Source of the DNA: Streptomyces yatensis
GTDB lineage: Bacteria > Actinomycetota > Actinomycetes > Streptomycetales > Streptomycetaceae
DNA: 64,000 nucleotides
Reading direction: 5' to 3'
Assembly (NCBI RefSeq): GCF_018069625.1
Contig: NZ_CP072941.1
Coordinates: 806,001-870,000 of the forward strand
Shown: one piece after another, positions 50,094 through 59,156 of the stretch
Position numbering within the stretch: position 1 is the stretch's first letter
Layout of the letters: the number at the start of each line of letters is the position of its first letter
Position numbers and translations under genes: made by a program
The notes under the pieces: model-generated
What the model saw: the letters and a program-made list of their open reading frames with translations, nothing else
Databases searched by the model: none
Told to the model about the DNA's origin: nothing

Positions 50094-51263
50094 TCAGCGC
50101 GCGGCGAGCAGATGGTCCATGGCGAGCTGGTCCAGGCGCTCGAAGGCCATACCGCGCTCGGCGGCCGCCTCGACGTCGAAGTCCTCGAAGGCGGTGCGGT
50201 CCGCGAGCAGCGCCGCCGGGGTCTCGCCCTCCCGAAGGGTCGGCTCGCCCAGCTGGTCCAGGCGCGAGGCGCGCAGCGCCTCCTGGACCTCGGGGTCGGC
50301 GCGGAAGGCGGCCGCCCGCTCCTTGAGGATGAGGTAGTTGCGCATGCAGCCGGCCGCCGAGGCCCAGACGCCCGAGATGTCCTCGGTGCGCGGGGGCTTG
50401 AAGTCGAAGTGGCGCGGTCCCGCGTAGCCGCCCGTCTCCAGCAGGTCGACCAGCCAGAAGGCGGCCCGCAGATCGCCCGCGCCGAACCGCAGGTCCTGGT
50501 CGTACTTGATGCCGTTCTGGCCGTTGAGGTCGATGTGGAAGAGCTTGCCCGCCCACAGTGCCTGGGCGATACCGTGCGGGAAGTTCAGCCCGGCCATCTG
50601 CTCATGGCCGACCTCCGGGTTGACGCCGTACAGCTCGGGCCGCTCCAGCCGCTCGATGAAGGCCAGCGCGTGGCCGACGGTCGGCAGCAGGATGTCGCCG
50701 CGCGGCTCGTTGGGCTTGGGCTCGATGGCGAAGCGCAGATCGTAGCCCTGCTCGGTGACGTAGGCGCCGAGCAGGTCGAACGCCTCCTTCATCCGGTCGA
50801 GCGCGGCGCGCACGTCCTTGGCGCCGCCGGACTCCGCGCCCTCGCGGCCGCCCCAGGCCACATAGGTCTTGGCGCCCAGTTCGGCGGCGAGGTCGATATT
50901 GCGCATGGTCTTGCGCAGCGCGTAGCGGCGCACATCACGGTCGTTGGCGGTGAAGGCGCCGTCCTTGAAGACCGGATGGGTGAAGAGGTTGGTGGTGGCC
51001 ATGGGCACGGTCATCCCGGTGGCGTCCAGGGCCTGCCGGAAGCGCTTGATATGCGATTCGCGCTCGGTCGCCGAGGCCCCGAAGGGGATGAGGTCGTCGT
51101 CGTGGAAGGTGACGCCGTACGCGCCGAGTTCGGCGAGCCGGGTCACGGACTCCACGGGGTCGAGCGCCGGGCGGGTGGCGTCCCCGAACGGGTCCCGGCC
51201 CTGCCAGCCGACCGTCCACAGTCCGAAGGTGAACCTGTCCTCGGGGGTGGGGTTGTAGCTCAT
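50094..51263 (-). CDS. xylA: Xylose isomerase
   Basis: 389 aa, the class I size of Streptomyces enzymes. The catalytic His is His54 in [12 protein letters not shown], metal ligands are in [12 protein letters not shown] (Lys183 region), [14 protein letters not shown] and [32 protein letters not shown] is the usual substrate-loop motif. It interconverts D-xylose and D-xylulose in the cytoplasm. Divergent from xylB with 118 bases between starts, so the pair is probably controlled from one operator region by the ROK repressor encoded after xylB. Confidence 0.97.
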
Positions 51264-51381: not shown

Positions 51382-52839
51382 ATGGCAGCAGCAGCCGTGC
51401 CCGTGCCGCAAGGACCGCTCGTCGTCGGCGTGGACAGCTCCACGCAATCGACCAAGGCGCTCGTCGTCGACTCCGCGACCGGTGCGGTCGTCGCCCGGGG
51501 ACAGGCCCCGCACACCGTCGGCGGCGGCGACGACGGCACCGGTAAGGAGTCCGCCCCCGAGCAGTGGTGGGAGGCGCTGACCGAGGCGCTGCGCCAGTGC
51601 GGCACCCCGGCCCGGGAGGCCGCCGCGATCTCCGTGGGCGGCCAGCAGCACGGCCTGGTCACCCTCGACGCCTCTGGCCGCTCGGTGCGGCCCGCACTGC
51701 TGTGGAACGATGTGCGCTCCGCGCCGCAGCGCGACCGGCTCATCGAGGAGCTGGGCGGCCCGAAGGCATGGGCGGAGCGGATCGGCAGCGTGCCCCCGCC
51801 CGCCTTCACCGTCACCAAGTGGGCCTGGCTCATGGAGAACGAGCCGGAGGCGGCCCGCGCCACCGCGGCCGTCCGGCTCCCCCACGACTACCTCACCGAG
51901 CGGCTCACCGGCTACGGCACCACCGACCGGGGTGACGCCTCGGGCACCGGCTGGTGGTCCTCGGCCACCGAGTCCTACGACGAGGAGATCCTGGACCGGG
52001 CCGGGCTCTCGCCCGAGCTGCTGCCGCGCGTGCTGCGCCACGGCGAGGCCGCCGGAACCGTACGGGAGCTGCCCGATCTGCCGCTGCCCACCGGAGCCCT
52101 GGTGGCCACCGGCACGGGCGACAACATGGCGGCCGCCCTGGGGCTCGGACTGCGGCCGGGGCAGCCGGTCCTCAGCCTGGGCACCTCCGGCACCGTCTAC
52201 GCGGTCTCCGCCCACCGGCCCGCCGACCCCAGCGGGGTGGTGGCAGGGTTCGCCGACACGCGGGACGCCTGGCTGCCGCTGGCGTGCACGCTCAACTGCA
52301 CGCTCGCGGTGGACCGGATCGCGGCGCTGCTGGGCCGCGACCGGGAGGCCGTGGAGCCGGGCGGCTCGGCCGTGCTGCTGCCGTTCCTCGACGGCGAGCG
52401 CACCCCCCATCTGCCGCACGCCTCGGGGCTGCTGCACGGTCTGCGCCACGACACCACACCGGGGCAGGTGCTCCAGGCCGCCTACGACGGGGCCGTCTTC
52501 GCCCTGCTCACCGCGCTGGACCAGGTGCTGGACGCGGACGCGGCGCCCGACGCCCCGCTGTTGCTCATAGGGGGTGGTGCCAAGGGCACGGCGTGGCGGG
52601 AGACGGTCCGGCGGCTGAGCGGACGCCCGGTGCAGGTGCCCCGGGCCGAGGAGCTGGTCGCCCTCGGGGCCGCCGCGCAGGCCGCGGGGCTGGTGCTGGG
52701 CGAGGACCCGGCGGCAGTGGCACGGCGCTGGGCGACCGCCGAAGGGCCGTCCTACGGTCCGGTGCCCCGCGACGAGGCGGCGCTGGAGCGGCTCTCCCGG
52801 GTGCTGGCGGACGCGGAGGGCCTGCTGCGCCACGCGTGA
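51382..52839 (+). CDS. xylB: Xylulokinase
   Basis: 485 aa, FGGY kinase family. N-terminal phosphate motif VVGVDSSTQSTKALVVD, substrate region VGGQQHGLVTLD with LLWNDVRS, then LPHDYLTERLTG, the second-domain ATP motif TGTGDNMAAALGLGL and SLGTSGTVYAV, and LLLIGGGAKGTAWRE. It phosphorylates D-xylulose to feed the pentose phosphate pathway. About 12 Ala/Pro/Val-rich residues (MAAAAVPVPQGP) precede the conserved fold. Xylulose kinases are among predicted cargos of family 2B encapsulins, whose genes lie 3.2 kb downstream. Confidence 0.96.
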   Translation: MAAAAVPVPQGPLVVGVDSSTQSTKALVVDSATGAVVARGQAPHTVGGGDDGTGKESAPEQWWEALTEALRQCGTPAREAAAISVGGQQHGLVTLDASGRSVRPALLWNDVRSAPQRDRLIEELGGPKAWAERIGSVPPPAFTVTKWAWLMENEPEAARATAAVRLPHDYLTERLTGYGTTDRGDASGTGWWSSATESYDEEILDRAGLSPELLPRVLRHGEAAGTVRELPDLPLPTGALVATGTGDNMAAALGLGLRPGQPVLSLGTSGTVYAVSAHRPADPSGVVAGFADTRDAWLPLACTLNCTLAVDRIAALLGRDREAVEPGGSAVLLPFLDGERTPHLPHASGLLHGLRHDTTPGQVLQAAYDGAVFALLTALDQVLDADAAPDAPLLLIGGGAKGTAWRETVRRLSGRPVQVPRAEELVALGAAAQAAGLVLGEDPAAVARRWATAEGPSYGPVPRDEAALERLSRVLADAEGLLRHA

Positions 52840-52922: not shown

Positions 52923-54188
52923 GTGGCAGCGCCACTGCCCAACACCCAGCAGGCGATGCGCCGGCGCAATCTCTCCCTCGTGCTGCACGCCGTGGCCGCG
53001 CACGGCCCGCTGTCCCGCGCGTCGGTGGCGGCCCGTGTGGGGCTCACCCGGGCCGCCGTCTCCACGCTCGTCGACGAGCTGATCCGGGACGGGCTGCTGG
53101 TCGAGCTGGGCCCCTCCCGGCCCGGTACGGTCGGCCGCCCCGGCAGCGCCCTGCAGCTCAATGAGCGCGGTCCGGCCGGACTCGGCGCGGAGATCGGGGT
53201 GGACCATCTCGCGGTGTGCGCGGTGGACCTCACCGGGAGGGTGCGGGCCCGCACGGAGATAGCGTCGGCGAACCGCGACCGTTCACCGGCCCCGGTGCTC
53301 ACCCAGCTCTCCTCCCTGGTGCGGCAGGTCGCGGCGGAGGCGGAGCTGATGGGGTTGCGGCCGGTGGGGCTCTCGGTGGCGGTGCCCGGTCTGGTGGCGC
53401 GGGACTCCTCGCTGGTCGTCCGCGCCCCCAACCTGGGCTGGGAGGGGGTGGACATCGGCCCCGAGCTGCGCACGGCGCTGCCCGGTCTGCCGGTCACCGT
53501 CGACAACGAGGCGAATCTGAGCGCGCTGGCCGAGCTGTGGCGGGGCGGCCACGACCCCGCGCCCCGGGATTTCGTCCATGTCTCGGCCGAGATCGGCATC
53601 GGCGCCGCGGTCGTGCTGGAGGGCCAACTGCTGCGCGGCACCCACGGTTTCGCGGGCGAGCTGGGCCATGTGCCGGTGCGCCCCGAGGGGCCCGAGTGCG
53701 CCTGCGGCGGCCGCGGCTGTCTGGAGCAGTACGCGGGCGAGGAGGCGGTGCTGCGGGCGAGCGGCCTGTCCCCCGAGGAGGCCGCGGCCCAGCACCCGGG
53801 CCCCGGCGGCCGCATCACCGTGCTGGCCGTAAGGGCGGCGAGCGGCGACCAGCGGGTGCGGCGGGCGCTGCGCGGCGCGGGCTCGGCGCTCGGGATCGCC
53901 CTCGCGGGCGCGGTGAACCTCCTGGACCCGGAGAAGGTGGTGCTCGGCGGCGCGCTGACGCCGCTGGCGCCCTGGCTGCTGCCCGCCCTGGAGCGGGAGT
54001 TGGGGCGGCGCCTCACCGACCCGGCCCGTCCGGGCAGCGGGGCGGTGACCGTCTCCCGGCTCGGCCCGGACGGTCCCCTGCTGGGCGCGGCCAACTCGGT
54101 GGTGCAGGCGGTCCTCGACGATCCGGCGGGGTTCAGGGATCCGGCCGGAGCCGGTGAGCCGGCCGAGGTCAGAGGAAACGATGCATGA
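52923..54188 (+). CDS. xylR: ROK-family repressor, XylR type
   Basis: 421 aa with the GTG start at 52923, preceded by AGAGGAG 10 bases upstream; an ATG at 52890 is less well placed. The N-terminal helix-turn-helix is NLSLVLHAVAAHGPLSRASVAARVGLTRAAVSTLVDELIRDGLL. The sugar-kinase-like ROK domain follows (EIGVDHLAVCAVDLTG, VDNEANLSALAELW, HVSAEIGIGAAVVLEGQLLRGTHGFAGELGHVPV) with the zinc motif CACGGRGCLEQY. It most likely represses xylA and xylB in the absence of xylose. The 3' end overlaps the convergent GNAT gene by 20 bases. Confidence 0.92.
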   Translation: MAAPLPNTQQAMRRRNLSLVLHAVAAHGPLSRASVAARVGLTRAAVSTLVDELIRDGLLVELGPSRPGTVGRPGSALQLNERGPAGLGAEIGVDHLAVCAVDLTGRVRARTEIASANRDRSPAPVLTQLSSLVRQVAAEAELMGLRPVGLSVAVPGLVARDSSLVVRAPNLGWEGVDIGPELRTALPGLPVTVDNEANLSALAELWRGGHDPAPRDFVHVSAEIGIGAAVVLEGQLLRGTHGFAGELGHVPVRPEGPECACGGRGCLEQYAGEEAVLRASGLSPEEAAAQHPGPGGRITVLAVRAASGDQRVRRALRGAGSALGIALAGAVNLLDPEKVVLGGALTPLAPWLLPALERELGRRLTDPARPGSGAVTVSRLGPDGPLLGAANSVVQAVLDDPAGFRDPAGAGEPAEVRGNDA

Positions 54189-54669
54189 TGTGCAGCCCCA
54201 CATAGCCCTTCGTGGGGTGGTCGAACGCCTTGGGGACGGTGCCGATGACCTCGAAGCCCAGTGAGCGCCACAGCGCCACCGCCCGGGTGTTGCTCTCCAC
54301 CACGGCGTTGAACTGCATCGCCTTGTAGCCCTCGGCGCGCGCCCACTCCAGGACATGCTCCCCCAGGGCCCGGCCCACACCGCGCCCGCCGTGCTCGGGC
54401 GCCACCATGAAACTGGCCCCCGCGATATGCGCGCCGGGTCCCATGTGGTTGGGGTTCATCTTGGCCGAGCCCAGGATCGTGCCGTCAGGGTCGGTGGCGA
54501 CGACGGTACGGCCCGGGGGGCTCGGCATCCAGATGTCGCGGGCCCCGTCCTCGTCCAGGTCGCGAGGGTAGGTGTAGGTCTCACCCGCGGCGACGATGCG
54601 GCGCAGGAAGGGCCAGATGGCGGGCCAGTCCTCGGCGGTGGCGGTCCTGATCGGCATGCGGGCCAGCAT
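54169..54669 (-). CDS. GNAT-family N-acetyltransferase
   Basis: 166 aa. Acetyl-CoA motif A is ASFMVAPEHGGRGVGRALGEHVLEWAR; motif B contains MQFNAVVESNTRAVALWRSLGFEVIGTVPKAF. The N-terminus IRTATAEDWPAIWPFLRRIVAAGETYTYP with the Pro/Gly-rich WMPSPPGRTVVA fits the phosphinothricin/other small-substrate branch. Substrate not assigned. Tail-to-tail overlap with xylR. Confidence 0.9.
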   Translation of the reverse strand: MLARMPIRTATAEDWPAIWPFLRRIVAAGETYTYPRDLDEDGARDIWMPSPPGRTVVATDPDGTILGSAKMNPNHMGPGAHIAGASFMVAPEHGGRGVGRALGEHVLEWARAEGYKAMQFNAVVESNTRAVALWRSLGFEVIGTVPKAFDHPTKGYVGLHIMHRFL

Positions 54670-54749: not shown

Positions 54750-55655
54750 TCAGCGGGCCGCGCGCAGGAACGCCTCCAGCCCCGCCAGGTCATCGGTGTT
54801 GAGGTAGTCCACATCGGCGGCCAGGAGCTCACGCCACAGGGCGTCGCGCTCCGGTCCGGCCACGTCCGGGGTGGCCCAGAAGCGCACGGTCTGCCCGGCG
54901 GCGTGCGCGGAGGCGACGAGGCGGTGCAGCGTCTCGCGCTCCGCCCGCGGCATCGGACCGGTGCCCGTCCAGGTGAAGGTCTTGGTCCAGTCGGCGCTGA
55001 TGAGCGGGATGAAGGAGGCGGGCACGCCCGAGCCGAGGTCCTCCAGACGTCCGTCGTAGAAGGCGTGGCGCACCTTCTCGGCCTCCATGGGCGCCCGTGC
55101 GCCGCGGTCGCCGGAGATGACGGCCGTCACCGCGCCGCGGCGCACCCGGCCGTCCACCCCGCCGTAGGCGGCGCTGAACAGCGGGCCGTAGTGGCGCAGC
55201 CGCTTGGCCAGTTCCAGGTAGGTGGCCTCCCCGGCGGTCTTGAGGTCGATCAGCAGCTGCAGCGACAGGTCGTGGCCGCGGTAGACCCGGCCGCCGTTGG
55301 CCTTCACCCGCCGGGCCAGCGGGTCGAGGTAGAGCGACTCCAGGGTGCGGGTGGGGTCGAGGTCGGTGGCGTCGTGCGCGACCAGCAACTCGCCCTCGAC
55401 CAGCCAGATGTCGGCCTCGACGCTGCCGAAGCCGTGGGAGAGCGCGTCGAGGAGCGGACGCGGGTGCTCGTAGTCGTTGTGGGCATGGGCTCTGGCCAGC
55501 GGCCGCTTGCCCTTCGAGAGGTCCTTCGAGCCGTCCTTCGAGACGGAGGTGGTGCCGAACGAGCTGGCCGTGCTGGCGAACGCGGGCGCGGCCGCGCCGC
55601 CCGCCAGAGCGGCTCCGAGGGTGACGACAAAGGCACGGCGTGTACGGCGGACCAT
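54750..55655 (-). CDS. Secreted PI-PLC/glycerophosphodiester phosphodiesterase-like protein
   Basis: 301 aa. The start MVRRTRRAFVVTLGAALAGG has the TRRAFVV form of a Tat signal, followed by ASTASS near a cleavage site. The catalytic barrel starts LARAHAHNDYEHPRPLLDALSHGFGSVEADIWLVEGELLVAHD, with the His and Glu-x-Asp residues expected of this superfamily, and ends with FWATPDVAGPERDALWRELLAADVDYLNTDDLAGL. Between signal and barrel lies a short Ser/Lys/Asp repeat (SKDGSKDLSKGK). The ATG at 55655 is better than the upstream frame start. Likely hydrolyses phosphodiesters outside the cell. Confidence 0.85.
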   Translation of the reverse strand: MVRRTRRAFVVTLGAALAGGAAAPAFASTASSFGTTSVSKDGSKDLSKGKRPLARAHAHNDYEHPRPLLDALSHGFGSVEADIWLVEGELLVAHDATDLDPTRTLESLYLDPLARRVKANGGRVYRGHDLSLQLLIDLKTAGEATYLELAKRLRHYGPLFSAAYGGVDGRVRRGAVTAVISGDRGARAPMEAEKVRHAFYDGRLEDLGSGVPASFIPLISADWTKTFTWTGTGPMPRAERETLHRLVASAHAAGQTVRFWATPDVAGPERDALWRELLAADVDYLNTDDLAGLEAFLRAAR

Positions 55656-56052
55656 GGGGCCTCCCGGCTCTCGTCCCGGCGCGGTGCCGGATACGCAGGA
55701 TGGACGCCAGTGAGTATCGGGCGGCCGTGCGCTCAAAGGGCAGTGCTGCGCGAAGAGTTCCACGGGTGGTCCCCGGCCATTTCCTCACCGTTCCCGGGGT
55801 GCCGAGGCGATGGCCGCGCCCGCCCGCGGGGGCGCGTGACGGGTGCGCGGGCGCCGGGTGAACGGGCGGGGTCGCGGAGGCCGTCGGCCCGCGGCGCGCA
55901 TTCGGAGTGTTTACCCGTCCGCGGCCGCCGACATAACCATCACCCGGGCACTCTTTTGAGTGAATGCACCACCCAAAGTCCGCTGATAGCTTGGCAGTTG
56001 CTCGAGCGGAATTTGTCCTCAAGGTCCGTACAGGGATGGGTGAGCATTCACG
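55656..56052. other. Upstream region of the encapsulin genes
   Basis: About 400 bases between the divergent phosphodiesterase-like and encapsulin genes. Contains a small inverted repeat CACTC-TTTT-GAGTG (55949-55962) and an AT-richer segment (55982-56015) likely to hold the shell promoter. The -35/-10 choice is not secure. No gene seen. Confidence 0.45.
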
Positions 56053-57465
56053 ATGACGACGTCCGTTGAACCGGGTTCCGGTACCGAGAATTCGCAGCCG
56101 CAGTTGAGCCTCGGCACGGCGGCCGCGCGGAATCTGGCGACGACGACCAAATCCGTTCCGCAAATGCAGGGCCTCAGTTCCCGATGGCTGCTGCGCATGC
56201 TGCCGTGGGTGCAGGTTCCGGGCGGTTCCTATCGTGTGAACCGCCGGGCGTCCCATACGCTCGGCGACGGCCGGGTGGAGTTCACCACCACCGGGTCCGA
56301 GGTGCGGGTCATCCCGGTCGAGCTGCGCGAGCTGCCGCTGCTGCGCGGTTTCGAGGACGCCTCGGTGCTCGGGGCCCTGGCGGACCGCTTCACCCAGCGG
56401 GAATTCGCACCGGGCGATGTGCTGGTCGAGGCCGGGCGCCCGGCCGATGAGCTCCTCCTCATCGCCCATGGCAAGGTCGACAAATTGACCGAGGGCGCGT
56501 TCGACGAACCCGCGGTGATCGGTTCGGCCGCCGGCGGCGACCACATCGGGGAGCCGGAGCTGACCGCCGCCGAGGCGGGCACCTGGGGCATCACCGTGAA
56601 GGCCGTGACCTCGTGCACGGTACTGGCCCTGCCCCGGCAGGAGTTCGAGGAGCAGCTGGACCGTTCACCCCAGCTGCGGGCGCATGTGGAGGGAGTGCGC
56701 TCGGCGCCGCAGGCCGAGCAGAACGAGCACGGGGAGGCGGCCATCGCGCTGGCCTCGGGGCATTCGGGCGAGCCGGTCCTGCCGGGCACCTTCGCGGAGT
56801 ACGAACTGACGCCGCGCGAGTACGAGCTGAGCGTGGCCCAGACCGTGCTGCGCGTCCACACCCGCGTCGCCGACCTCTACAACGAGCCCATGAACCAGGT
56901 CGAGCAGCAGCTCCGCCTCACCATCGAGGCCCTGCGCGAACGCCAAGAGCACGAGCTCGTCAACAACCGCGAATTCGGCCTGCTGCACAACGCCGACCTC
57001 TCCCAGCGCATCCACACCCGCAGCGGACCACCCACCCCCGACGACCTCGACGCGCTGCTGGCCACCGTCTGGAAGGACCCGGGGCTGATCCTGGCGCATC
57101 CGCGCGCCATCGCGGCGATCGGCCGCGAGTTCAACGCCCGTGGCATCTCCCCGCAGCCCACGGAGGTGAACGGCCATGCGATGCCGGCCTGGCGGGGCGT
57201 GCCCATCTTCCCGTGCAACAAGATTCCGGTGTCCCGGAGCGGGGTGACCTCCATTCTCGTCCTGCGCACCGGGGAGGAGAACCAGGGGGTCATCGGACTG
57301 CACCGCACCGGAATTCCCGACGAATACCAGCCGAGCCTCTCGGTGCGATTCATGGGAATCAGCGAGCAGGCCATCATCTCGTATCTCGTCAGTGCCTACT
57401 ATTCCGCGGCCGTGCTCGTCCCGGACGCGCTCGGAATTCTGGAGAACGTGGAAATCGGGCTCTGA
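56053..57465 (+). CDS. Family 2B encapsulin shell protein 1 with cyclic-nucleotide-binding-like insert
   Basis: 470 aa. Residues 15-95 form the N-terminal arm and start of the HK97-type shell fold ([49 protein letters not shown]). Residues about 95-220 are a cyclic-nucleotide-binding-like module ([46 protein letters not shown]). The shell fold resumes with [50 protein letters not shown] and ends [38 protein letters not shown]. No helix-turn-helix, so not a Crp-type regulator. Such proteins assemble into compartments around an enzyme cargo. Confidence 0.93.
56767..57052 (+). repeat. Near-identical tract shared by both encapsulin genes, copy 1
   Basis: Pairs with 58230-58515. Over the 230 bases from 56821 only 5 differences occur, all silent third positions, while flanking DNA of the two genes is clearly diverged. 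Confidence 0.9.
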
Positions 57466-57536
57466 CGCCCACCCGACCGGGCCCATGGCCTTCGCATACC
57501 TTCCCGAAGATCTACCGAAATGGGTGATGAGCACTT

Positions 57537-58925
57537 ATGACCACTTCCGTGGAGTCCGGTGAGCAGCCGCTGAGTCTGGGCACGGCCGCCGCACGGAATC
57601 TGGCGACCACCACCAAGTCCGTTCCGCAGATGCAGGCCATCTCCTCCCGGTGGCTGCTGCGCGTCCTCCCCTGGGTGCAGGTGTCGGCCGGTACGTACCG
57701 GGTGAACCGCCGACTGACGTACACGGTCGGAGACGGTCGGGTGGAGTTCATCAGCACCGGATCGCAGGTGCGGGTCATCCCACCGGAGCTGGGCGAGCTG
57801 CCGACGCTGCGCGGCTTCGGGGACACCGGCGTACTGGAATCGCTGGCCGACGGGTGCGTCCAGCGCGAGTACGCGCCCGGGGATGTGCTGGTCGAGGCGG
57901 GCCGCCCGGCCGACCAGGTGTTCCTGATCGCCCACGGCAAGGTCCGCCAGATCGCCCCCGGCGCCTATGACGAGGGCACCACGCTGGCGGTGCTGGCCGA
58001 CGGGGAGTACTTCGGCGACGCGGTGCTGACCGGTCCGGAGCACACCTGGGAGTTCACCGCCCGGGCCGTCACCCGGACCACGGTGCTCACCCTCCCGCGC
58101 CGCGTCGTCCAGGAGGCCGCCGACCGCTCCGATGCGCTGCGCGACCATCTCCAGGGGCTTTCGGAGCGCTCCACGCCCGCTCAGAACCGGCGCGGCGAGG
58201 CCGATATCGCCGTCGCGTCCGGCCACGCGGGCGAGCCGGTCCTGCCGGGCACCTTCGTGGACTACGAACTGGCGCCGCGCGAGTACGAGCTCAGCGTGGC
58301 CCAGACCGTGCTGCGCGTCCACACCCGCGTCGCCGACCTCTACAACGAACCCATGAACCAGGTCGAGCAGCAGCTCCGCCTCACCATCGAGGCCCTGCGC
58401 GAACGCCAGGAGCACGAGCTCGTCAACAACCGCGAATTCGGCCTGCTGCACAACGCCGACCTGTCCCAGCGCATCCACACCCGCAGCGGACCGCCCACCC
58501 CCGACGACCTCGACGAGCTGCTGGCACGGCGCCGCAAGACCCAGTACCTGCTGGCGCATCCGCGCACCATCGCCGCCTTCGGGCGTGAGTGCAGCGACCG
58601 TGGTCTGTATCCGCAGGGCATCGAGGTGGCCGGGGTCGCGGTGCGGGCCTGGCGCGGGGTTCCGCTGCTGCCCTGCAACAAGATCCCGATCAGCGAGTCG
58701 GGCACCAGCTCCATCCTGGCGATGCGCACCGGGGAGGAGAGCCAGGGGGTCATCGGTCTGCATCAGACCGGTATCCCGGATGAGTACGAGCCCAGTCTGA
58801 ACGTCCGGTTCATGGGCATCAGCGAGCAGGCCGTGACGTCCTACCTGGTCTCCGCCTATTACTCGGCGGCGATTCTGGTGCCCGACGCGGTCGGTGTGCT
58901 GGAGGACGTCGAGATCGGCCGCTGA
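57537..58925 (+). CDS. Family 2B encapsulin shell protein 2 with cyclic-nucleotide-binding-like insert
   Basis: 462 aa, 71 bases after shell gene 1. Same architecture: [22 protein letters not shown], then [21 protein letters not shown], the nucleotide-binding-like insert at residues 85-210 ([46 protein letters not shown]), the conserved [21 protein letters not shown] block and the C-terminal [38 protein letters not shown]. The insert differs from copy 1 more than the shell core does, so the two may bind different ligands or form a mixed shell. The 5' leader resembles that of copy 1. Confidence 0.93.
58230..58515 (+). repeat. Near-identical tract shared by both encapsulin genes, copy 2
   Basis: Partner of 56767-57052. 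The sharp boundaries of similarity argue for gene conversion. Confidence 0.9.
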
Positions 58926-58961: not shown

Positions 58962-59156
58962 TCAGGGACGGACGCTGCTGACCACGTCCGCGGTGGCGGC
59001 GAGCCCCTCGGAGATGGTGGGCGCCACACTGCTGCTCGCCAGGTAGAAGCCCAGCGTCACACAGACCAGCGCATGCGAGATGCGCAATCCGCCGCTGCGG
59101 AGGAAGACCACCGTCAGGATCAGAAGCAGCAGGACCACGGAGATGGAAATGGCCAT
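58962..59156 (-). CDS. Small membrane protein, 64 aa
   Basis: Begins MAISISVVLLLLILTVVFLRSGG, a clear membrane helix, then GLRISHALVCVTLGFYLASSSVAPTISEGLAATADVVSSVRP with a second hydrophobic segment. GGCTCCCC-complement (GGGGAGCC) lies just upstream of the ATG on the minus strand. I recall similar uncharacterised proteins in Streptomyces genomes. Convergent with the encapsulin genes, so unlikely to be co-transcribed with them. Confidence 0.75.
   Translation of the reverse strand: MAISISVVLLLLILTVVFLRSGGLRISHALVCVTLGFYLASSSVAPTISEGLAATADVVSSVRP

Follow-up and report, generated by a model that had tools for sequence, protein, structure and literature searches.

What protein is enclosed by the shell encoded by two tandem encapsulin genes that have no terpene cyclase beside them? 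This question is raised by Enc1 and Enc2, a pair of Family 2B encapsulin genes in Streptomyces yatensis, found in a stretch of 64,000 nucleotides (hereafter the window) that covers positions 806001-870000 of the 10.36 Mb single-contig genome (NZ_CP072941.1, assembly GCF_018069625.1). The pair is a member of the published xylulose-kinase-type class of two-component Family 2B encapsulins. XylB, the xylulokinase of that class, is not obligate for the pair, as seven related genomes keep both shells under constraint and yielded neither XylB nor XylA in searches. A geosmin synthase acting in trans is, with moderate confidence, the leading alternative to XylB. The reading preferred here, given slightly less than an even chance of being correct, is that Enc1 and Enc2 form a mixed shell and that its likely cargo is a geosmin synthase encoded far away and loaded in trans.

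The shell pair and its class

The two genes and the motifs considered below are located as follows (window positions, strand).

56053..57465, +, Enc1, Family 2B encapsulin shell protein, 470 aa (PF19307, PF00027, NF041163)
56107..56130, +, Enc1 N-arm motif SLGTAAAR, similar to the terpene cyclase cargo motif GLGTSAAR
56398..56664, +, cyclic-nucleotide-binding-like insert, Enc1 residues 116-204 (PF00027)
57064..57075, +, Enc1 diagnostic motif 1, TVWK (identical letters in Streptomyces lydicus Sl-Enc1, PMC12407261, partial text)
57537..58925, +, Enc2, Family 2B encapsulin shell protein, 462 aa (PF19307, PF00027, NF041163)
57573..57596, +, Enc2 N-arm motif SLGTAAAR
57864..58127, +, cyclic-nucleotide-binding-like insert, Enc2 residues 110-197 (PF00027)
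58527..58538, +, Enc2 diagnostic motif 1, RRRK (identical letters in Sl-Enc2, PMC12407261, partial text)

Enc1 precedes Enc2 on the same strand with a gap of 71 bp, and the predicted proteins are 73% identical across the alignment. Both contain the SrpI-like HK97 domain PF19307 (E 4.9e-137 in Enc1, 1.4e-141 in Enc2) and, N-terminal to that match, a PF00027 insert (E 2.6e-12 and 1.4e-14, respectively) that presumably lies inside the E-loop, a placement taken over from solved relatives. NF041163, the NCBIfam equivalog for Family 2B shells, is matched with 763.6 bits by Enc1 and 782.9 bits by Enc2 (cut-off 400), and both proteins score below the cut-off of the Family 2A model. A first-pass annotation, made from the sequence before any database search, had described tandem paralogous 2B shells with nucleotide-binding-like inserts and named them a two-component Family 2B encapsulin; the open reading frames, the domain matches, the TVWK and RRRK motifs and the short gap all agree with this. 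PF19307 was detected at three places in the genome, namely the two genes of the pair and one single shell gene 8.2 Mb away. Among the matches listed, Enc1 is 94-95% identical to the copies in S. iranensis, S. endocoffeicus and S. rugosispiralis.

The same annotation considered this the best candidate for an undescribed compartment system, a claim that does not survive comparison with the literature. A 2021 survey (PMC8346489, partial text) catalogued 124 Family 2B loci with xylB in Streptomyces, each having two shells, often in company with xylA and xylR. One member, from S. lydicus, had its shells solved in 2025 (PMC12407261, partial text). The class is defined by xylB within 20 open reading frames of the shells (PMC8346489), and a two-component system by both shell genes lying within 10 kb (PMC12407261). 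The window has the closely spaced shells with their diagnostic motifs, and xylB together with xylA; xylR is represented only by a ROK-family regulator. The best structural matches are 9bje for Enc1 (721 bits) and 9bix for Enc2 (692 bits), which are deposited as the two S. lydicus shells (data statement of PMC12407261). S. lydicus Enc1 and Enc2 co-assemble, Enc1 by itself forms no shells, and the N-arm of Enc1 is resolved but that of Enc2 is not (PMC12407261). By analogy with these structures, the window proteins are predicted to assemble into a closed, mixed shell.

The S. lydicus system (Sl-Enc1/Sl-Enc2) is thus the closest known relative, sharing two tandem HK97 shells, the cyclic-nucleotide-like insert, TVWK/RRRK and the xylulose-kinase class. 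In the window, ROK, GNAT and GDPD genes separate xylB from Enc1, and the cargo assignment of the class is questioned here. The 2021 survey took cargo from the gene neighbourhood and reported xylulose kinases without consistent disordered stretches (PMC8346489), and the authors of the 2025 study describe the native cargo of xylulose-kinase-type systems as undetermined in the available part of their text (PMC12407261).

Three further systems are comparable. Terpene-cyclase two-component loci also have two shells and a geosmin-synthase-like cyclase with a GPTGLGTSAAR-type motif, but the cyclase is encoded in cis, between or beside the shells, whereas the tagged cyclase of the S. yatensis genome is 4.6 Mb away. 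The 2-methylisoborneol (2-MIB) synthase encapsulin has a Family 2B shell and a terpene cyclase with a GLGT motif, but only one shell, with its cyclase in cis; the window pair has two shells and no cyclase in cis. S. yatensis itself has such a 2-MIB synthase encapsulin, of the EshA/SgEnc type, at 9.10 Mb. Family 2A encapsulins (SrpI, MMP-I) share the HK97 domain and, unlike the window shells, have no insert.

Both shell genes are also matched on the opposite strand by RF02735 (Rfam; Sernc350, a Saccharopolyspora antisense RNA), at 56092-56600 (-, 121.1 bits) and 57557-58063 (-, 109.6 bits). These matches may reflect no more than the description of this RNA as antisense to a related shell gene.

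XylB is not obligate for the pair

The genes from xylA up to the shell pair are listed below.

50094..51263, -, xylA, xylose isomerase (TIGR02631, 736.1 bits)
51382..52839, +, xylB, xylulokinase, without cargo motif or long tail at its termini (TIGR01312 XylB, 458.9 bits, cut-off 380.25)
52956..54188, +, ROK-family regulator, likely xylR (gene call; ROK-type NCBIfam matches under cut-off)
54169..54669, -, GNAT acetyltransferase (PF00583)
54750..55763, -, GDPD-like phosphodiesterase with a twin-arginine-type signal sequence by eye (PF13653), retained beside the pair in the xylB-less clade

The first-pass annotation had seen no adjacent known cargo. This holds for 2-MIB synthase, other terpene cyclases, prenyltransferases and cysteine desulfurases, none of which is among the genes called in the last 20 kb of the window. 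However, xylB, the published putative cargo, had been overlooked 3.2 kb upstream of Enc1.

The best 80 of 572 candidate loci and 39 further loci were compared, with some species represented twice. Streptomyces pairs fall into five gene-order groups. In Group A, which is window-like, xylA-xylB-ROK-GNAT-GDPD precede Enc1 (L013 has no xylB in the gene calls). Group I has xylB-GNAT-GDPD-NAGPA in this position and xylA is missing. In Group B (17 loci), xylB is directly before Enc1 in 7, and ROK, sometimes with one more gene, intervenes in the other 10; the gene caller skipped xylB in L115, where the whole-genome XylB search located it. Group V, which includes S. netropsis, S. olivoverticillatus and mostly species with verticillate-type names, retains the SNF2-SWIM and GDPD-NAGPA flanks found elsewhere and carries no xyl genes. 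Group F occupies a different setting without xylB, with a cyclase in only 1 of 12 loci. In F-type loci (L105, L106, L110 and others), the pair lies beside genes for a right-handed-repeat-type protein and a large membrane protein, both recognised by eye, and no known cargo gene is adjacent. In two relatives (L090 and L092), extra genes between GNAT and GDPD, in the stretch from xylB to Enc1, include one or two similar to 1-deoxyxylulose-5-phosphate synthase, a possible terpenoid-precursor link.

Whole-genome searches recovered a XylB ortholog (at least 77% identity) in 33 of 40 pair-bearing genomes, which is every one of the 33 outside Group V. No ortholog was found in any of the seven Group V genomes searched (93-100% complete), where the best matches have 44-54% identity, a level also seen for other FGGY kinases in the set. 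Of 18 genomes searched for xylA, 6 contain it; it was not found in the seven Group V genomes or in G058, G031, G154, G089 and G090. In four pair-bearing genomes (G089, G145, G298 and G368), xylB is at least 80 kb from the pair or on another contig. The first-pass annotation had proposed co-occurrence of neighbours in relatives as a check; of the 40 pair-bearing genomes, 29 have xylB linked to the pair and seven yielded no xylB in the searches.

The Group V shells are under ordinary purifying selection. The ratio of nonsynonymous to synonymous substitution rates is 0.13-0.23 in Group V (9 comparisons), 0.14-0.26 in Group A (5) and 0.11-0.31 in Group B (4), so constraint is equal with and without xylB, which argues that the shells are kept in Group V for something other than XylB. 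The likely cargo of the pair would instead be the tagged geosmin synthase described below. Group V Enc1 and Enc2 each form a single clade (support 99 and 96), and the loss of xylB therefore looks old. Enc2 of Groups A, I and V forms one set (support 97) that includes one extra row from an A-like locus; in the Enc1 tree, the branching order of these three groups is not settled. The termini of XylB carry no cargo motif and no consistent tail.

The xylB-less loci were not accepted as disproof of any xylulokinase link, given that xylB is adjacent to Enc1 or 1-2 genes away from it in Group B. A 14-mer common to the xylA-xylB gap and the region upstream of Enc1 was also rejected, as at least 6 were listed and most shuffles reach 6 too.

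A tagged geosmin synthase encoded elsewhere

The geosmin synthase gene of S. yatensis is located at 5.44 Mb, with no shell gene adjoining; the shells are at 0.86 and 9.10 Mb. Its product carries an exact GPTGLGTSAAR motif at the C-terminus, 20 residues before the end, with HGPTGLGTSAARI near the end, and only a diverged SGLGVSAAS lies between the two cyclase domains. GLGT is the core of the cargo motif of the 2021 survey (PMC8346489), and was found in 31 of 35 geosmin-synthase-like cyclases of the first-fetched loci (33 from shell loci, and two that are the standalone copy of this genome, in L004 and L006). The protein matches NF041168, the NCBIfam model for a "family 2 encapsulin cargo terpene cyclase", with 1181 bits over all 735 positions, 19 bits under the 1200 cut-off. 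As a genome-wide cargo finder, the DNA pattern GPxGLGT was rejected, its matches being no more numerous than those of the reversed-pattern control.

The possibility of a mixed shell with cargo encoded elsewhere had been raised in the first-pass annotation and fits these findings, in that one clade retains the shells but can do without XylB, and the gene for a terpene cyclase with a tag is located at a distance. The annotation also stated that its reading would be refuted by a known cargo gene, with an N-terminal disordered tag, found as the partner elsewhere. This was borne out in part: a tagged known cargo type is encoded elsewhere in the genome, but the tag is C-terminal, and its role in loading is predicted from sequence. 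In the open-licence literature, searched by title and abstract with subscription papers outside its scope, the only item relevant to a link between encapsulins and geosmin was the 2021 survey.

The tag resembles part of the shell itself. An SLxTxAAR-type N-arm motif is present in 209 of 225 shell proteins of the loci, most commonly as SLGTAAAR (88). The best match to GLGTSAAR in both Enc1 and Enc2 is the N-arm, with a score reached by 3 of 2000 shuffled motifs, and in a list of 121 proteins from the window and five loci that score is attained by just two, both of them shell proteins (window Enc1 is start-trimmed in this list). A 12-letter motif gave 7 of 2000 shuffles for the Enc2 N-arm. The likeness of cargo motif and N-arm was not seen noted in the available parts of PMC8346489 or PMC12407261.

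If Enc1 and Enc2 form one mixed shell, as their S. lydicus counterparts suggest, the C-terminal GPTGLGTSAAR tail of geosmin synthase would dock on the shell interior and bring the cyclase in. More speculatively, since the tag motif resembles the shell N-arm motif, the tag may mimic the SLGTAAAR N-arm and bind at the N-arm site that Enc2 leaves vacant. The full form of this proposal, in which the tandem 2B shells are a geosmin compartment loaded at Enc2-vacant sites by the N-arm-mimicking tag of a distant synthase, with xylulokinase as a passenger, is considered rather unlikely.

A conserved site upstream of Enc1

A further feature of the pair is located upstream of its first gene.

55948..55963, +, conserved inverted-repeat site GCACTCTTTTGAGTGA, likely an operator or promoter element, upstream of Enc1

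The pattern is CCACTC(T/G)TT(T/C)GAGTGA-TGC or a close variant and was found ahead of Enc1 in 67 of 71 loci of the five groups (A 18/18, B 17/17, I 4/4, V 17/20, F 11/12). It was found before Enc2 in none of 65 loci and before 2 of 72 shells outside the five groups. These counts come from a loose pattern, with species repeated among the loci and at least 2 of 48 training sites that look spurious. The window site scores 36.9 and the next best in the window 10.2; no site of comparable score was found elsewhere in the window, including at xylB, or at the 2-MIB synthase locus (L005). In Group B, the site sits between xylB (or ROK) and Enc1, and the pair therefore likely has its own promoter.

The consensus of each group matches the published BldM Group I consensus (PMC4125116, partial text) at 9 or 10 of 14 positions. 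Compared with shuffled upstream regions, Groups A and F are no better and Groups V, I and B slightly better (mostly 10 against mostly 8-9), so that BldM counts as a lead on the regulator of the site rather than a finding. Activation of the S. venezuelae EshA-2-MIB synthase operon by BldC (PMC6428758, partial text) is a precedent for developmental control of such shells. Sigma-70-like promoters and terminators were not found above the level of shuffles.

Distribution of the tag and the pair

Standalone geosmin synthases from 127 Streptomyces genomes were classed, a non-random set of 54 pair-bearing and 73 pair-less genomes. The 54 comprise the 40 of the XylB search and 14 more; G073 and the half pairs in G120 and G150, at the least, are not among them. 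Also included are the 3 of 13 genomes lacking a strong Enc1 match that have a full geosmin synthase, the Streptomyces genomes from a class-wide draw, and every genome among G001-G054 not examined before. Tags were called by regular expression and corrected by hand (G086, G025, G030 and G328 to tagged, G639 to untagged), and G265 was called tagged by eye.

A motif follows the second domain in 53 of these 54: it is strict in 46, a variant in 6 and, in G265, followed by a long extra tail. The single exception, G035, retains the linker copy of the motif. A motif-free tail ending like HGFLPDRAP was found in 36 of the 73 pair-less genomes and in none of the 54. Streptomyces geosmin synthases thus have two main tail types, GLGTSAAR-like and HGFLPDR-like (loci L156-L288), and in the eight HGFLPDR-type genomes displayed, TCACGCGATGGTGTGA lies 67-68 bp upstream of the geosmin synthase start.

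The pair represents the only detected 2B shells in 18 genomes (G096, G058, G031, G154, G145, G037, G113, G135, G138, G156, G271, G330, G388, G345, G631, G088, G711 and G655), and the motif is present in all 18 (4 variants). The second shell is cut in G271, and its match crosses one in-frame stop codon in six F-type genomes (G037, G156, G330, G388, G631 and G655). The same combination of motif and pair alone occurs in G298, G357, G360, G368, G263 and G294, where the count of two shells is supported only by a stricter Enc1 search. At least one 2B shell is present in all 65 genomes of the shell-count sample. On a geosmin synthase tree built from both domains, with tags as called before the hand corrections, there are 8 changes of tag state against only 4 of the pair label. 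What stands after this test is that the tag is retained where the pair is the sole shell and is often absent elsewhere, though 2B shells are present.

Candidate cargos compared

Several results weigh against loading of geosmin synthase in trans. The motif also follows the second domain in 34 of the 73 pair-less genomes (12 strict, the others variants). The association of tag and pair (Fisher p 5.7e-13, before hand corrections) was rejected as independent evidence, being confounded by descent, and a pairwise sign test on the geosmin synthase tree had no power (median p 1); because of this confounding, loading in trans is something that we infer. In S. yatensis, the other 2B shell, beside 2-MIB synthase, could take the tagged cyclase. 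A DNA search of the genome for GPTGLGT gave one exact match, at the geosmin synthase C-terminus, and the reversed control also gave one, so that the weight of the match rests on its place and not on its count. The likeness of the 12-letter motif to the Enc1 N-arm is weak (149 of 2000 shuffles), and no binding experiment was found. Sites of the Enc1 type were not found at 30 geosmin synthase loci (best score 10.6, training median 32.7); co-regulation with the pair is therefore not supported and the idea of shared regulation was rejected. Lastly, xylB lies within about 7 kb of Enc1 in the 29 linked genomes (A 9/9, I 3/3, B 17/17), two gene orders link it to the pair, and it persists beside the pair without detectable xylA in G058, G031, G154 and G090, which favours a real xylulokinase role.

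This last set of observations, with the 124 published loci (PMC8346489) and the direct adjacency in 7 of the 17 Group B loci, would be explained if xylulokinase were the native cargo, held by a signal yet to be recognised, and the verticillate-type clade had lost the enzyme and reused the shell. That explanation is on the unlikely side, as seven genomes keep both shells with constraint unchanged where no XylB or XylA was found, XylB is remote in four others and has neither motif nor consistent tail, and a conserved site of its own precedes the pair even where xylB is the gene directly upstream. A third enzyme encoded elsewhere, with neither the terpene cyclase motif nor a shared neighbourhood, would make bystanders of both XylB and geosmin synthase. 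Since the pair-following neighbours in several groups (GDPD, NAGPA and a small membrane protein) appear, on inspection by eye, to be exported or bound to the membrane, the neighbourhood offers no cytosolic enzyme common to all groups, and since GLGT occurs in none of 40 prenyltransferases of the loci, a motif search would miss such a cargo. Nothing positive speaks for a third enzyme, however, and the published cargo-type motif is already found on geosmin synthase, making this distinctly unlikely. Two separate shells, which the 2021 survey could not rule out (PMC8346489), or empty or regulatory shells, are very improbable, because the S. lydicus proteins co-assemble, Enc1 alone makes no shells (PMC12407261), and the window proteins agree with that pair in diagnostic motif 1, letter for letter.

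Other features of the window

Downstream of the pair, a gene for a 64-aa small protein is followed by a GMC oxidoreductase gene.

58962..59156, -, small membrane-type protein, 64 aa, often after Enc2 (16 loci in protein clustering)

At the other end of the window (42-24286), genes for sheath-like (PF04984/PF17482), Tail_P2_I (PF09684) and Baseplate J (PF04865) proteins look like a contractile injection system; the match of this cluster to CIS12 is sub-threshold.

Implications

For a class whose cargo was described as undetermined (PMC12407261), the comparison names one other enzyme, geosmin synthase, and one peptide as candidates. If loading in trans is true, encapsulin cargo surveys limited to neighbouring genes would miss cargos encoded in trans, and the earthy smell of soil would, in many species, be made within a protein shell.

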